The notes under the pieces were generated by a model. That model did no database searches, was not told the DNA's origin, and saw only the letters and a list, made by a program, of their open reading frames with translations. Source: an uncultured Propionivibrio sp. (lineage in GTDB: Bacteria; Pseudomonadota; Gammaproteobacteria; Burkholderiales; Rhodocyclaceae). From it: a DNA stretch of 64,000 bases. Location of the stretch: the NCBI RefSeq assembly GCF_963666255.1, contig NZ_OY762657.1, positions 434,001-498,000 of the forward strand. The letters run 5' to 3'. The translations under genes and the position numbers were made by a program. Of the stretch, positions 3,670-38,535 are shown in pieces. Position 1 is the stretch's first letter. Each line of letters starts with the position of its first letter.

Positions 3670-5637
3670 ATGCAAAAGTACCCCTTGAACTACCTTTCGC
3701 TGCTCTCCGAAAAGCACCCCTCGATCGAGGCGGCCTCGACGGCCATCATCAACCTCACGGCGCAGCTGCAGCTCCCCAAGGGCACCGAGCACTTCCTCTC
3801 CGACGTTCACGGCGAGCACGAAGCCTTCCAGCATGTCATCCGCAACGGCGCCGGCTCGATCTGGCGAAAGATCGACGAAATGTTCGCCAACTCGATGTCG
3901 AAGCGCGAACGCCGGAACCTCACGACGCTGATCTACTACCCCGAGGACAAGACGCCGCTGATGCTGCAAAGCGTCAACGACAAGGACGAGTGGTGCCGGC
4001 TCACGCTCGTCCGGCTCGTCAAGTTCTGTCGCACGCTGAGCGCCAAGTATCGGCGTGAAACCGTGCGTGCCCTGCTGCCGAAGCACCTGGCCGAGACGAT
4101 CGAGGAGCTTCTTTACGACCAGGAAGGCGTCGAACACAAATCGGCCTACTACCAGAGCCAGATCGACACCATCGTCTCGACCGGCAGCTCGCAGACCTTC
4201 ATCACCTGTCTCGCCACGCTGATCCAGCAGCTGGCCGTCGAACGCCTGCACATCATCGGCGACATCTACGACCGCGGCCCCGGCGCCCACATCATCCTCG
4301 ACGAGTTGATGGACCACCACCAGGTCGACATCCAGTGGGGCAACCACGACATCCTCTGGATGGGCGCCGCCGCCGGCTGCGAACCCTGCATCGCCAATGT
4401 CGTCCGCATCAGCCTGCGCTACGGCAATATGGAGACGCTCGAGAACGGCTACGGCATCAGCCTGCTGCCGCTGGCCTCGTTTGCACTCGAAACCTACAAG
4501 GAAGATCCCTGCGAACCTTTCACGCCGAAAGTCGCGGCCAACAGCCTGTTCAGCACGCAGGAAATCCGGCTGATGGCGCAGATGCAGAAGGCGATGGCGG
4601 TCATCCAGTTCAAGCTCGAAAGCCAGGTCATCCGGCGGCGTCCGCAGTACCAGATGGAAGACCGCCTGCTGCTGCGCAAGATCGACTATGCCCGCGGCGT
4701 CATCACGCTCGACGGCGTCGAATACCCCTTGATCGACACGTTCTTCCCGACCATCGACCCGGCCGATCCGGAAGCACTGACCGCCGAAGAACAGGCAATC
4801 GTCGACAAGCTCGTCCTCTCCTTCACCAGCAGCCAGAAACTACATCAGCATATCCGCTTCCTGTTCTCGATCGGCAGCCTCTATCGCGTCCATGACGGCA
4901 ACCTGCTCTACCACGGCTGCATCGCCATGAACGACGACGGCAGCTTCCGCGCCTTCAACGTCGACGGCAAATCCTTCGCCGGCAAGGCCTTCCTCGACCG
5001 TGTCGACCGCCTTGCGCGGCAAGGCTATTTCGACACCGATCACCCGGCGCAAAAGCGCTACGGCATGGATGCCATGTGGTTCCTCTGGTGCGCCCCGATG
5101 TCGCCGCTTTTCGGCAAGGACCGGATGACCACCTTCGAACGCTACTTCATCGCCGACAAGGCAACGCACGTCGAGAAGCGCAACGCCTACTACACACTGC
5201 GCGACACCGAGGAATCGGCGCGCAAGATCCTGCAGGAATTCCGGCTCGACCCCGACCACGGCATCATCATCAATGGCCACGTCCCGGTGAAGGTGACGAA
5301 GGGCGAACGCCCGATCAAGGCCAACGGCCGCCTGATGGTCATCGACGGTGGATTCTCGCGCGCCTACCAGAAGCAAACCGGCATCGCCGGTTATACGCTC
5401 ATCTCCAATTCGCGCGGCATGCTGCTGGCTGCTCACCAGCCCTTCGAGTCGAAGCAGGCAGCGGTCTCGGAAGAGTTCGATATCGACAGCGAAACGGAGA
5501 TCGTGCATACCCACCCGTTCCGCCTGCGCGTCCGCGACACCGACCGCGGACTGGAAATCCAGGAGAAGATCGACGCACTCAAGGCGCTGCTGCACGCCTA
5601 CCGCGAGGGCCTGATCAAGGAACACAGCCTGGCCTGA
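3670..5637 (+). CDS. fbp: Fructose-1,6-bisphosphatase, class III
   Basis: Cytoplasmic gluconeogenic enzyme hydrolysing fructose 1,6-bisphosphate to fructose 6-phosphate. The 655 residues match the long class III FBPase first known from Bacillus, which has a calcineurin-like metallophosphatase core. Visible metal-binding motifs are FLSDVHGEHE near residue 40, GDIYDRGPG near 197 and WGNHD near 222, with a later INGHVPVK element near 537. The ATG opens a canonical MQKYPLNYLSLL N-terminus. It stands alone, divergent from kup, and ends just before a strong symmetrical terminator. Proteobacteria more often carry class I enzymes, so this may be a replacement or an extra copy; the window cannot tell which. 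Confidence 0.93.
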   Translation: MQKYPLNYLSLLSEKHPSIEAASTAIINLTAQLQLPKGTEHFLSDVHGEHEAFQHVIRNGAGSIWRKIDEMFANSMSKRERRNLTTLIYYPEDKTPLMLQSVNDKDEWCRLTLVRLVKFCRTLSAKYRRETVRALLPKHLAETIEELLYDQEGVEHKSAYYQSQIDTIVSTGSSQTFITCLATLIQQLAVERLHIIGDIYDRGPGAHIILDELMDHHQVDIQWGNHDILWMGAAAGCEPCIANVVRISLRYGNMETLENGYGISLLPLASFALETYKEDPCEPFTPKVAANSLFSTQEIRLMAQMQKAMAVIQFKLESQVIRRRPQYQMEDRLLLRKIDYARGVITLDGVEYPLIDTFFPTIDPADPEALTAEEQAIVDKLVLSFTSSQKLHQHIRFLFSIGSLYRVHDGNLLYHGCIAMNDDGSFRAFNVDGKSFAGKAFLDRVDRLARQGYFDTDHPAQKRYGMDAMWFLWCAPMSPLFGKDRMTTFERYFIADKATHVEKRNAYYTLRDTEESARKILQEFRLDPDHGIIINGHVPVKVTKGERPIKANGRLMVIDGGFSRAYQKQTGIAGYTLISNSRGMLLAAHQPFESKQAAVSEEFDIDSETEIVHTHPFRLRVRDTDRGLEIQEKIDALKALLHAYREGLIKEHSLA

Positions 5638-8754: not shown

Positions 8755-9744
8755 TTACTTGACGTCGCGGACGGCGTCGATGGCCTTGATCACGTCTTCA
8801 CCGCCGAACTTGTCGGTGAAGGTCTTGCGGCCCGCCTTCGTCGCTTCCAGGAACGGCGCCGGATCAACCTTCTCCACCACCGAAACGTTCAGCTTCTTCA
8901 GGTCCGCAACGATCTTCGCGATGTTGTCGTTGTTCAGCTTGCGCTGGTACGCGCCCGCTTCACGCGCCGCTTCGACGATCGCCTTCTGATTCGCCGGCGA
9001 CAGCGATTCAAACTTCTGCTTGTTCATCACCACCACCAGCGCGCTGTACGCGTGGTACGTCAGCGACAGGTGCTTCTGCACTTCGTACAGCTTCGCCGAC
9101 CACAGCACCCCGATCGGGTGTTCCTGCGCGTCCACCGTCTTCATTTCCAGCGCCGTGTACAGTTCCGCCAAAGGCATCGGCACCGGGTTCGCGCCCAAGA
9201 GCTTGAACGCTTCGATGTGCGCCGGGCTGCCCGTCGTCCGCATCTTCAGCCCCTTCACGTCCGCCGGTACGTTGATCGGGTGCTTCGAGTTGCTCATCTG
9301 ACGCCAGCCGTTGTCCCAGTACGCCAGACCCTTCATGTTGAATTCGGCCAGCTTGTCCAGCATGTCCTGGCCCGGCTTGCCGTCCAGCGCGCGGTACGCG
9401 TGCGCCGTGTCCTTGAACATGAACGGGATGTCGAAGATCCCCATCAGCGGCACCAGCCCGCTGAAGTTGCCCGAGCCCGAGACGATGATGTCGATCGTCC
9501 CGCCACGTACGCCGCTGATCGCCGCGTCAAACTTGCCCAGCGAGCTGTCCGGGTACACTTTCAGTTCCAGCGCGCCCTTCGTCTTCGCTTTCAGCAGTTC
9601 GCTGAATTTCTCGCCACCCTGGAATTGCGTGTCCGAGCGCGGCGCTTCCGATGCAAAGCGCAGCGTTTCCGCTTGCGCCGCCGCGAACATCCCCGCCAGC
9701 GCCCCGGCCATCAGCAACGTTTTGAACATGCCCTTGATTTTCAT
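8755..9744 (-). CDS. dctP: TRAP transporter solute-binding protein DctP
   Basis: Periplasmic substrate-binding component of a tripartite ATP-independent transporter. It has 329 residues, with a signal peptide at about 1-25 (Lys start, hydrophobic core, cleavage after AQA). The mature protein has the DctP fold: ETLRFASEAP start, the conserved arginine region GLKMRTTGSP near residue 167 that binds a substrate carboxylate, and the ALEMKTVDAQEHP element. The ATG has a good ribosome site (GAGGAG). It is the third gene of a dctQ-dctM-dctP order on the minus strand. The uronate enzymes around it suggest a sugar acid or uronate oligomer as substrate, which is inference. Confidence 0.92.
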   Translation of the reverse strand: MKIKGMFKTLLMAGALAGMFAAAQAETLRFASEAPRSDTQFQGGEKFSELLKAKTKGALELKVYPDSSLGKFDAAISGVRGGTIDIIVSGSGNFSGLVPLMGIFDIPFMFKDTAHAYRALDGKPGQDMLDKLAEFNMKGLAYWDNGWRQMSNSKHPINVPADVKGLKMRTTGSPAHIEAFKLLGANPVPMPLAELYTALEMKTVDAQEHPIGVLWSAKLYEVQKHLSLTYHAYSALVVVMNKQKFESLSPANQKAIVEAAREAGAYQRKLNNDNIAKIVADLKKLNVSVVEKVDPAPFLEATKAGRKTFTDKFGGEDVIKAIDAVRDVK

Positions 9745-9794: not shown

Positions 9795-11075
9795 TCAGTA
9801 GAACCACCGCGCCGGGATCGTCACCAGTTGCGGGAACGCCACCAGCAGGAACATCACCAGCGTTTCCGCCACCAGGAACGGGAACATCCCCTTGATCACC
9901 GTGTCCAGATTCACCCGCGCCACGCTCGAGACAACGTTCAGGACCGTCCCTACCGGCGGTGTGATCAGCCCGATCGCGTTGTTCATCATGAACATGATGC
10001 CAAAGTAGTACGGGTCGATTCCCGCCGCTTTCACCAGCGGCATCAGCACCGGCGTCAGGATCAGTACCGTCGGCGCCAGGTCCAGTGCCGTCCCCACCGC
10101 AAAGACCAGGATCATCAGGATGACCATCAGCAGCAGCCGGTTGTCCATGAACGGCGCCATCATCTCCGTCACTTGCGCCGGAATGTCCGCGATCGTGATC
10201 AGCCATGCCGATACCATCGACGCCGCCACGATCAGCATGATCGAGCTCGCCGTCTTCGCCGAGGCCAGCAGGATCTTCGGCAGGTCCGACAGTTTCATGC
10301 CGCGGTAGATGAACAGGCTGACGATCAGCGCCACCACCGCCGCCACCACCGCCGCTTCCGTCGGCGTGAACATCCCGCTCTTCATCCCGCCAATGATGAT
10401 GAACGGCAGGAGCAGCGCCCAGATCGCTTCGCGCAGCGAGGTCCACAGCACTTGTGCGTCAAACTTTTGCTTCGGCGCGTTGGCAAAGTCTTTCCGCGCC
10501 ACGAACTTCCAGGTGATCACCAGCGACAGCGCCATGATCAGCCCCGGGAAGATCCCCGTGAAGAAGAGTTTCGTGATCGACAGTTGCGCCGCTACCCCGA
10601 ACAGCACCAGCGGCATCGCCGGCGGCAGGATCGGCGCGATGCACGCCGCTCCGGCAATCAGGCCCGCCGACCGTCCGACGTTGTAGTTCGCCTTGCGCAT
10701 CATCGGGATCACCACCGCCGCCAGCGCCGCGCTGTCCGCCGCCGCCGATCCCGAGATGCTCGCCAGAATCAGCGCCGCAATGATCGCGACATAGCCCAGC
10801 CCGCCTTCAATGTGCCCGACCAGTGCGTTCGCCACTTTGACGATCTGGTGCGAGATCCCCCCCTTGTTCATGATCTCGCCCGCCAGCATGAAGAACGGGA
10901 TCGCCATCAGCGGGAAATTGTCCGCTCCAGAGACCAGGTTCTGCGCCAGGATCTGCACGTCGAACGAGTTCAGGTGAATCATCAGCGACACGCCGCAGAC
11001 CAGCAGCGCAAACGCTACCGGCATGCCAATGAACATCGCTCCGCACAGCGATACCAAGAATACTGTTACCGTCAT
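9795..11075 (-). CDS. dctM: TRAP transporter large permease DctM
   Basis: Inner-membrane large subunit of the TRAP transporter, the part that couples uptake to the sodium or proton gradient. It has 426 residues, the normal DctM length, with about twelve hydrophobic helices. Family motifs include GMPVAFAL near residue 17, the ISGSAAADSAAL loop near 108 and ITPPVGTVLN near 374. It lies 20 bases after dctQ and 50 bases before dctP, in the same direction, so the three subunits form one unit. Confidence 0.93.
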   Translation of the reverse strand: MTVTVFLVSLCGAMFIGMPVAFALLVCGVSLMIHLNSFDVQILAQNLVSGADNFPLMAIPFFMLAGEIMNKGGISHQIVKVANALVGHIEGGLGYVAIIAALILASISGSAAADSAALAAVVIPMMRKANYNVGRSAGLIAGAACIAPILPPAMPLVLFGVAAQLSITKLFFTGIFPGLIMALSLVITWKFVARKDFANAPKQKFDAQVLWTSLREAIWALLLPFIIIGGMKSGMFTPTEAAVVAAVVALIVSLFIYRGMKLSDLPKILLASAKTASSIMLIVAASMVSAWLITIADIPAQVTEMMAPFMDNRLLLMVILMILVFAVGTALDLAPTVLILTPVLMPLVKAAGIDPYYFGIMFMMNNAIGLITPPVGTVLNVVSSVARVNLDTVIKGMFPFLVAETLVMFLLVAFPQLVTIPARWFY

Positions 11076-37051: not shown

Positions 37052-37127
<76 letters not shown>

Positions 37128-37135
37128 CAGAATTC

Positions 37136-37166
37136 AAAGCCCGACCGTTTCCGGTTGGGCTTTTTT
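37136..37166 (+). terminator. Rho-independent terminator after tRNA-Ala
   Basis: AAAGCCCGACCG pairs with CGGTTGGGCTTT (one G-T pair) across a four-base loop, followed by more T residues. It starts nine bases after the tRNA. Confidence 0.85.
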
Positions 37167-37388: not shown

Positions 37389-37418
37389 TTGCCGTGCCGC
37401 AAGGCGGAAGAGTAAAAT
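37389..37418 (+). promoter_or_regulatory. Candidate sigma-70 promoter of the rfaH-like gene
   Basis: TTGCCG (37389-37394) and TAAAAT (37413-37418) are separated by 18 bases and lie just upstream of the RfaH-like gene at 37451. The 220 bases between the tRNA terminator and this site hold nothing I recognise. Confidence 0.5.
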
Positions 37419-37450: not shown

Positions 37451-37948
37451 ATGCACTGGTATCTAGTTCATACCAAGCCAAGACAGGAAAAGTGCGCCCT
37501 CGACAACCTCCATCGACAGGGTTATCAGTGCTACCTTCCGACGCTTCCCTCGGAAAAGCTACGCCAAGGACTGCTAACAATTGCCGACGAGCCACTATTC
37601 CCGCGTTACCTGTTCATCCGCTTGGGACAGGGGGACTCAGCCAAGAGTTGGTCGCCGATTCGTTCGACCAAGGGTGTTAGCCGCCTGGTCAGCTTTGGGA
37701 TCGAACCGGCACGGGTTGATGACAGGCTGATTGAACTGCTGCGAACTCAGGAAGCGGGGGTACAAGCCGAGCCGCAGCGATTGTTCAAGCAAGGTGAGCG
37801 CGTGCGCCTCACAGAAACACCGTTTGCCGGCATCGAAGGGATCTACCAGATGGCCGACGGAGAGCGTCGAGTCATGGTACTGATCGAGATTCTGAGCAAG
37901 CCCGTGACCGTGCGTGTCACGCCGGCGAGTGTGCGCAAGGCAAGCTGA
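37451..37948 (+). CDS. rfaH: RfaH-type transcription antiterminator (NusG paralogue)
   Basis: Cytoplasmic antiterminator of 165 residues that binds RNA polymerase paused at an ops element and lets it transcribe long polysaccharide operons. The NGN domain (about 1-100) has WYLVHTKPRQE at the start, EPLFPRYLFIRL near 55 and IRSTKGVSRLVSFG near 74, all matching E. coli RfaH elements. A short KOW-type C-terminal domain follows (about 112-165). The ATG at 37451 has GGAGG five bases upstream; a GTG two codons earlier overlaps that site. An exact ops match lies 171 bases after its stop, before the glycan genes, which strongly supports an RfaH assignment over housekeeping NusG. Confidence 0.92.
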   Translation: MHWYLVHTKPRQEKCALDNLHRQGYQCYLPTLPSEKLRQGLLTIADEPLFPRYLFIRLGQGDSAKSWSPIRSTKGVSRLVSFGIEPARVDDRLIELLRTQEAGVQAEPQRLFKQGERVRLTETPFAGIEGIYQMADGERRVMVLIEILSKPVTVRVTPASVRKAS

Positions 37949-38119
37949 TCAACCTGCCTCGTTATTGCCTGTTTGGCAAAAAGCCTTTCTCAAAGTCATG
38001 ACGGTGTGGCACAATTCCGGTCGTCCGTCGAACTTGAGGCAGCATCTTTTGCCGCACTTTATTGTTCCGGGCTCCCTGCCAGAACCTACCAACCGCGCTT
38101 GCTGATCGTGAAACAGCAT

Positions 38120-38132
38120 GGCGGTAGCGTGC
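38120..38132 (+). promoter_or_regulatory. ops element (RfaH recruitment site)
   Basis: GGCGGTAGCGTGC matches the E. coli ops consensus GGCGGTAGCGT exactly and extends the match by one or two bases. It lies in the leader between rfaH and the MarR-like gene, 11 bases before that start, in the sense orientation for the surface-glycan operon. The bases before it (GCTGATCGTGAAACAGCAT) loosely resemble part of the longer JUMPstart region. An RfaH gene 171 bases upstream makes chance occurrence unlikely. Confidence 0.85.
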
Positions 38133-38142
38133 CATAAACACC

Positions 38143-38535
38143 TTGAGTATCGTATCCCCACTACAGAAATTGGCTGGTTTCCAAAACGAAATCCAGTTCG
38201 AAATCTTGCTCCGTTTGCATCAGACGTCGGAGGCCATTCAGCGTGAACAGACCAAGGTACTGGCCATGAGTATTGGCGCGATCAATTTCTGCTTCCAGGC
38301 GCTTGTAGAAAAGAGTTTGGTCAAGATTCAGAGCCTTAGCCTTAGTCTGAGCAAGAACAAGCTACGTTATACCTATTCACTCACGCCCACTGGAGTGGCT
38401 GAGAAATCCAGGCTGACGGCGAAGTTTTTGAGGCAAAAAGCGGCCGAGTACGGGACGTTTCAAGCCGAAATAGAGAAGTTGATAGCTGACCTCTTGAGTG
38501 ATGAACGCAAAGCAGAAGGATGGCGAAGTCGATGA
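38143..38535 (+). CDS. EPS-associated MarR-family regulator
   Basis: A cytoplasmic winged-helix protein of about 130 residues. It resembles the MarR group found at the head of exopolysaccharide loci (EPS-associated MarR family): helix-turn-helix with SIGAINFCFQALVEKSLVK near residues 43-61, a wing region with KNKLRYTYSLTPTG near 71-84, then a long helix with KSRLTAKFLRQKAAEYG. The start is uncertain. No ATG fits, and TTG at 38143 is the best candidate, only 11 bases after ops; such spacing raises the possibility that RfaH also affects its translation. It overlaps galE by four bases. Confidence 0.75.
   Translation: MSIVSPLQKLAGFQNEIQFEILLRLHQTSEAIQREQTKVLAMSIGAINFCFQALVEKSLVKIQSLSLSLSKNKLRYTYSLTPTGVAEKSRLTAKFLRQKAAEYGTFQAEIEKLIADLLSDERKAEGWRSR

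Follow-up and report, generated by a model that had tools for sequence, protein, structure and literature searches.

Does the rfaH gene that lies beside a perfect ops site and a long run of glycan genes in a betaproteobacterium work together with these neighbours as an antitermination module? The window examined here is a stretch of 64,000 nt from the genome of an uncultured Propionivibrio sp. (order Burkholderiales), and all coordinates refer to it. RfaH, ops and the JUMPstart sequence with its stem-loop are known from Gammaproteobacteria, according to the available parts of three papers (PMC2864571, PMC6391919, PMC7819879). We consider it probable (roughly 0.85) that RfaH and ops in the window form a complete antitermination module, which acts on the glycan genes next to it. 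This reading is built on the parts themselves, their order, their conservation, the covariation of an RNA hairpin and the ops-contact residues kept in the protein.

The rfaH gene (37451–37948, plus strand) encodes a specialised NusG paralog of 165 amino acids. The protein scores 167.4 bits against the NCBIfam RfaH equivalog TIGR01955 (cut-off 144.5), which places it in the family, and the E. coli RfaH structures 5ond and 2oug are its top matches among solved structures. Foldseek ranked an integrative NusG model first and the polymerase-bound E. coli RfaH (6c6s) second. The UpxY profile NF033644 gave 76 bits, under its cut-off of 100, so the protein is not assigned to the UpxY family. H20 is an important residue in E. 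coli RfaH. The side chains of four residues, K10, H20, R23 and R73, contact ops there, according to the available text of the structural work (PMC5995543). The equivalents in the window are K9, N19, R22 and K74; three of the four are still basic, and H20 is replaced by N. The same pattern runs through an alignment of 50 rows, with K at the K10 position in 48, K or R at the R73 position in 43 and N at the H20 position in 49. Among the positions related to autoinhibition, the equivalents of E48, R138 and L142 are kept, and F130 is replaced by Y.

The ops element GGCGGTAGCGTGC (38120–38132, plus strand) begins 171 nt downstream of the end of rfaH, and 10 nt separate it from the TTG at 38143. The exact ops match after an RfaH-like gene that the sequence-only reading had pointed out is therefore confirmed. 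The core GGCGGTAGCGTG sits in the leader before the first gene, a leader that we infer to be untranslated. The 11-mer GGCGGTAGCGT occurs exactly once in the window and six times in the whole genome (4.0 Mb), close to the count of about 5 that we ourselves estimate from base composition; the 11-mer alone is thus weak evidence. The 13-mer has two copies in the genome, and the second (C2:1110987) has no upstream leader by eye. With our leader model R1, the site in the window was the only match in this genome at E≤0.1.

We chose 53 loci by RfaH protein similarity, 50 of which have the full 450 nt downstream of rfaH. Within this distance and on the same strand, GGCGGTAGCGTG is present exactly in 25 of the 53 loci and with at most one mismatch in 33. 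In the same loci, the 450 nt after rfaH hold no exact 12-mer on the opposite strand and the 450 nt before it none on the same strand; 1000 letter-shuffled 12-mers likewise gave none. Looking for ops beside rfaH-like genes in the genome and its relatives, the check proposed by the sequence-only reading, hence shows a site conserved across many betaproteobacterial families. Twenty of the 53 loci have no 12-mer, even with one mismatch, in the 450 nt downstream. These include loci with a leader elsewhere (L178, L222), loci with a changed ops as in Herbaspirillum and loci with too little sequence (L206, L216); in the remainder, nothing clear was found. In L178 and L191, the site is upstream on the other strand, and these sites look like divergent leaders. 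Three Herbaspirillum loci (L195, L196, L207) retain the leader type of the window, called type A below, with ops altered to AGCGGTAGCCTT or GGCGGTAGCCTT, which could be either shifted specificity or decay.

An overlapping survey covered 54 regions from the order and the genus (the window plus 53) and included RfaH matches below the family cut-off. The exact 12-mer lies within 250 nt downstream in 17 of them, two of which (L099 and L120) are identical copies in one genome, and six further regions have it 0.5–2.3 kb downstream. At L070 (G005), rfaH is flanked by two divergent leader-plus-ops elements (9463–9516, minus strand; 10370–10423, plus strand), an arrangement in which a single RfaH could act on both of the diverging units. 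At L154 (G034), two ops elements lie about 1 kb apart on the minus strand (3859–3912 and 4885–4938), each with a 10-bp hairpin, and the two hairpins are near-identical in sequence.

Judged from the alignments, the conserved unit is larger than ops and comprises a promoter-like block, a hairpin and ops. The leader CCGCGCTTGCTGATCGTGAAACAGCAT (38093–38119, plus strand) defines type A in an alignment of 19 leaders (A1). The 27-nt conserved stretch before ops, CCGCGCTTGCYGATCGTGAAACRGCAT, is found in nine families of the order (f1, f7, f18, f19, f24, f42, f43, f46 and f51). It contains an RNA hairpin, TGCTG-ATCGTGAAA-CAGCA (38100–38118), identified by pairing and covariation, with a 5-bp stem, a 9-nt loop and a 1-nt spacer to ops. 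The stem positions pair in 98.9% of cells across the 19 leaders, and two of the five pairs are changed on both sides. The covariation score was reached by none of 500 shuffles, and pairing fell to 16–55% when the partner was shifted by 1–3 columns. When the window leader is folded together with ops, a competing fold is present. An unusual folding energy was considered and rejected as a property of the leaders, with a median z of −0.39 (n=34) vs 0.05 in 41 controls (p=0.07). Both findings speak against the hairpin.

In 2010, Weinberg et al. reported that JUMPstart contains a conserved stem-loop, and a table row of that paper names the gamma-Proteobacteria (PMC2864571, available in part). The window leader shares this architecture, a stem-loop directly upstream of ops that ends 1 nt before it. 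The same hairpin geometry, with different sequences, is seen in the rfb and waaQ leaders of E. coli K-12, and we therefore regard the element as a betaproteobacterial JUMPstart-like one. It differs from the Rfam JUMPstart model RF01707 in both its stem and loop sequences, scoring 17.4 bits against a cut-off of 35, and so falls outside that family. Under stricter filters, which the E. coli control passes, RF01707 was above its cut-off in none of 399 Burkholderiales genomes. The combination of block, hairpin and ops offers a bioinformatic handle for operons of the RfaH type in this group, which escape the Rfam model.

Leaders of other types point the same way. Fourteen non-type-A leaders from rfaH regions have different hairpins at this position; scored for a stem that ends 1 nt before ops, they average 12.3, vs 5.0 in 41 leaderless 13-mers, with a p value of 2e-4 that is optimistic because several of the 14 are interrelated and one (L204) is by eye a type A variant. 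A score of at least 9 was reached by 12 of the 14 and by 12 of the 41, a control, used for the folding energies too, that is partly selected, since eight unlinked sites judged real by their leaders are excluded from it. R1 scored above 40 bits in 36 of the 53 protein-selected loci (37 matches, two on the minus strand), at least four of which (L174, L181, L191, L217) are contigs used in building the model. Across 312 genomes of the class, R1 scored strongly for the window only, and 14 others reached 25–31 bits. Nine of those 14 were read; all have ops cores, and most have unrelated hairpins. The class sites found with R1 were left out of the stem-score comparison because they had been selected for structure.

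The promoter-like block (37987–38015, plus strand), aligned across genera, consists of TTCTCA (37987–37992), 17 nt and CACAAT (38010–38015), the latter inside the conserved TGTGGCACAAT (38005–38015). With up to two mismatches, TGTGGCACAAT starts 86–139 nt before ops at 30 of 38 type A sites, vs about 1% of shuffles, although the motif was taken from the window and 16 relatives and the comparison is not independent of those rows. The positive sites include the unlinked L155 and the divergent L178. A consensus promoter scan of the window did not list the block at 37987–38015. The same scan did list a promoter-like site with 9 of 12 consensus positions (TTGCCG-18-TAAAAT, 37389–37418, plus strand). 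The sequence-only reading had taken it for the rfaH promoter, and for rfaH itself this is plausible. The gene run may not need it, given a conserved block between rfaH and ops, and probably has a promoter of its own downstream of rfaH.

To see how far rfaH and ops occur together, we surveyed 399 genomes of the order, 44 of which are RfaH-positive (E at most 1e-20), 26 of them above the family cut-off. The bare 13-mer is found in 23 of the 44 RfaH-positive and 62 of the 355 RfaH-negative genomes (p=1.3e-6). With so many RfaH-negative genomes among the matches, neither the 11-mer nor the 13-mer by itself was accepted as a marker. Thirty-five of the 13-mer contexts in RfaH-negative genomes were read by eye (27 in L122–L151 and 8 in L152–L171), and none has a leader. 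R1, run genome-wide with stricter filters and with 14 candidates scored per genome, matched at E<1e-3 in 15 of 44 RfaH-positive and 1 of 355 RfaH-negative genomes; since 14 of the 15 supplied rows of the model, what is informative is how rarely it matches in RfaH-negative genomes.

The 44 RfaH-positive genomes were labelled by hand. In 18, rfaH and ops share a contig and lie no more than 6 kb apart (one with an upstream ops and one with a mismatch among them); seven have leader-bearing ops elsewhere, and in 19 neither was found. The seven genomes without ops near rfaH hold eight leader-bearing sites, six of which precede a homolog of the MarR_EPS regulator described below; ops and MarR_EPS thus often remain neighbours where rfaH lies apart from them. 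The contiguity of rfaH, ops and operon, put forward earlier as special, is real here, but it is not unusual in this group. One genome (G086, L239) has a good leader with ops, and its matches to the RfaH model reach at most 49 and 41 bits, so that it has no RfaH above the cut-off; the gene downstream of this leader is, by eye, likely a polysaccharide-export permease. The same genome has a short NusG-like frame of 88 amino acids (C19:61881). G086, the 20 loci lacking a nearby 12-mer, the 19 RfaH-positive genomes in which no site was found and the change of H20 to N weigh against our main reading. In G110 (L091, L108), three RfaH-family matches, two above the cut-off, lie within about 78 kb (C1:105445–183603). 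In G050, three contigs (C3, C11, C14) carry the 13-mer at the identical position 26–38 near the contig start, as if the assembly had cut a repeated element.

The window thus resembles the E. coli RfaH-ops system in its RfaH family protein, exact ops, promoter-proximal leader and glycan gene run, and in its contacts of the K10 and R73 type. It differs in that rfaH adjoins its likely target, in the change of H20 to N and in having one leader-bearing site in the genome. Among the matches listed from the open-access literature, no title or opening of an abstract mentions an ops or JUMPstart element in Betaproteobacteria. On our reading, a large group of environmental bacteria would also recruit RfaH in the ops-type manner. 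Wang et al. (2020) describe RfaH clusters CL2–CL8 near envelope genes, with an HTH regulator in CL4; the available parts of their paper report no ops for these clusters and name E. coli RfaH as the sole member for which recruitment is understood in detail (PMC7593976). The window is like CL4 in having RfaH near envelope genes with an HTH regulator, possibly the present MarR_EPS pairing, and unlike it in having ops.

The order of events that we propose starts with RNA polymerase initiating just past the promoter-like block that lies around 38010. Promoter activity is read from sequence here, and pausing, loading, Rho exclusion and ribosome recruitment are carried over by analogy with E. coli. 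The leader hairpin (38100–38118) would fold on leaving the polymerase, which would then pause at ops with the RNA 3' end about 12 nt beyond the hairpin. The ops pause is placed at U11 in the available text of recent work, which also treats the E. coli pause as biochemically distinct from hairpin-stabilised pauses (PMC11001881). At that distance, we propose, the hairpin could limit backtracking or lengthen the pause. RfaH from the adjoining gene would read flipped-out ops bases on the non-template strand, replace NusG on the polymerase and stay bound. Bound RfaH would keep Rho from ending the long transcript early, and a ribosome would be recruited to the first gene, which by eye has no clear Shine-Dalgarno sequence.

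UpxY and TaA are NusG paralogs encoded in their target operons, and the window is like them in having the regulator gene beside the operon. By the same route, polymerase near rfaH might simply catch RfaH in cis without sequence recognition, with ops as a pause site only. The adjoining rfaH fits such loading, and so does the NusG-like β C-terminal domain (CTD), i.e. no autoinhibition, that AlphaFold2 predicts for the window RfaH (mean pLDDT 87.4) and for a relative with its leader-bearing ops on a different contig (L215, 87.7). In addition, the available text of a preprint has predicted monomorphic RfaHs tending to adjoin operons (PMC13015549). We nevertheless hold cis loading to be very unlikely. 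The conserved promoter-like block of the gene run is downstream of rfaH, the ops bases are kept together with the basic character of three of the four contact residues, and leader-bearing ops also occurs away from rfaH. Unlike UpxY and TaA, the window protein, which scores below the UpxY cut-off, comes with an ops site.

The β-CTD models come from narrow alignments and were made without an E. coli control, and are a hint only. We looked for a difference in CTD fold between a linked and an unlinked RfaH, and both models are β. If the predicted β-barrel holds, it would set the window protein apart from E. coli RfaH, a difference to which we give low weight. The hint matters because, in the available parts of the published account (PMC7593976), ops recognition appears late in the evolution of RfaH and jointly with autoinhibition, and because monomorphic RfaHs have been linked to neighbouring operons. 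It leads to a speculative proposal, which we rate as doubtful, that betaproteobacterial RfaHs are ops-specific and not fold-switching, the free CTD being already a β-barrel and specificity residing in ops plus the sequence-variable hairpin 1 nt upstream. If this were true, ops recognition would have evolved earlier than autoinhibition, or in its absence, contrary to the published joint late order. Hairpin and ops together would then serve Beta- and Gammaproteobacteria alike as a general loading platform in which the hairpin sequence is free to change. The linked and unlinked natural versions of the module are material for testing the evolution of ops recognition and fold switching.

The first gene after ops encodes the MarR_EPS regulator (38143–38535, plus strand; TIGR04176, 103.1 bits, cut-off 88), and its TTG start is uncertain. 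The main role of the conserved leader could, in principle, be to bind this protein, as DNA or as RNA. In a tblastn search with the window protein as query (E<1e-4), which included some short contigs, 24 of the 63 unique ops sites, among them six of the eight unlinked ones, do have a MarR_EPS homolog within the next 900 nt. None was found in this way at the other 39, and the rfb and waaQ leaders of E. coli have a hairpin of equal geometry with ops and no such gene annotated nearby, which makes this explanation very improbable in our view. Among the literature matches listed for MarR_EPS, nothing on its function was found. A chance occurrence of an 11–13-mer in GC-rich DNA, which the six genomic 11-mers would fit, is ruled out for practical purposes by the 33 linked sites in 53 loci against zero in the controls and by a position, strand and upstream leader conserved in dozens of loci.

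The module also appears to travel. The RfaH of the window shares 91% identity with its counterpart in a genome from another family (G226), where NusG is 80% identical, and 73% with that in a genome from the same genus (G005), where NusG is 99% identical. Sequence comparison thus indicates that the rfaH gene moves between lineages, and the leader probably moves together with it. Upstream of rfaH are a tRNA gene (37052–37124, Rfam match) and, after it, a terminator-like hairpin (37136–37163). In G226, tRNA-Ala(CGC) also stands before rfaH. A tRNA-flanked integrated island was rejected as a rule, as a search of the window and the genome that allowed three mismatches gave no second copy of the tRNA 3' end. 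In 60 related loci, tRNA-Ala(CGC) is beside rfaH in L094 and L174 only, which are the same contig, and four others have other tRNAs.

The glycan gene run (38520–63830, plus strand), delimited by family matches and gaps, is the putative RfaH-dependent unit. Its families include galE, an ABC exporter, a legB-type dehydratase, two neuB-type genes, neuC, cytidylyltransferases and aminotransferases, among others. Plus-strand frames, mostly of sugar-pathway families and a few without a Pfam match, continue to the end of the window, about 1.8 kb short of the contig end. The largest gap between listed frames from 38143 rightward is 87 nt, and terminator-like sites in the run are no more frequent than in shuffles. 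A contiguous glycan run is therefore real, and these features are compatible with the RfaH-dependent unit of more than 25 kb from 38143 that had been predicted. Between 42322 and 52830, the run holds two different NeuB-type genes (42322 and 51769) and two cytidylyltransferase-type genes (46534 and 49475), a pairing that suggests two nonulosonic acid pathways.
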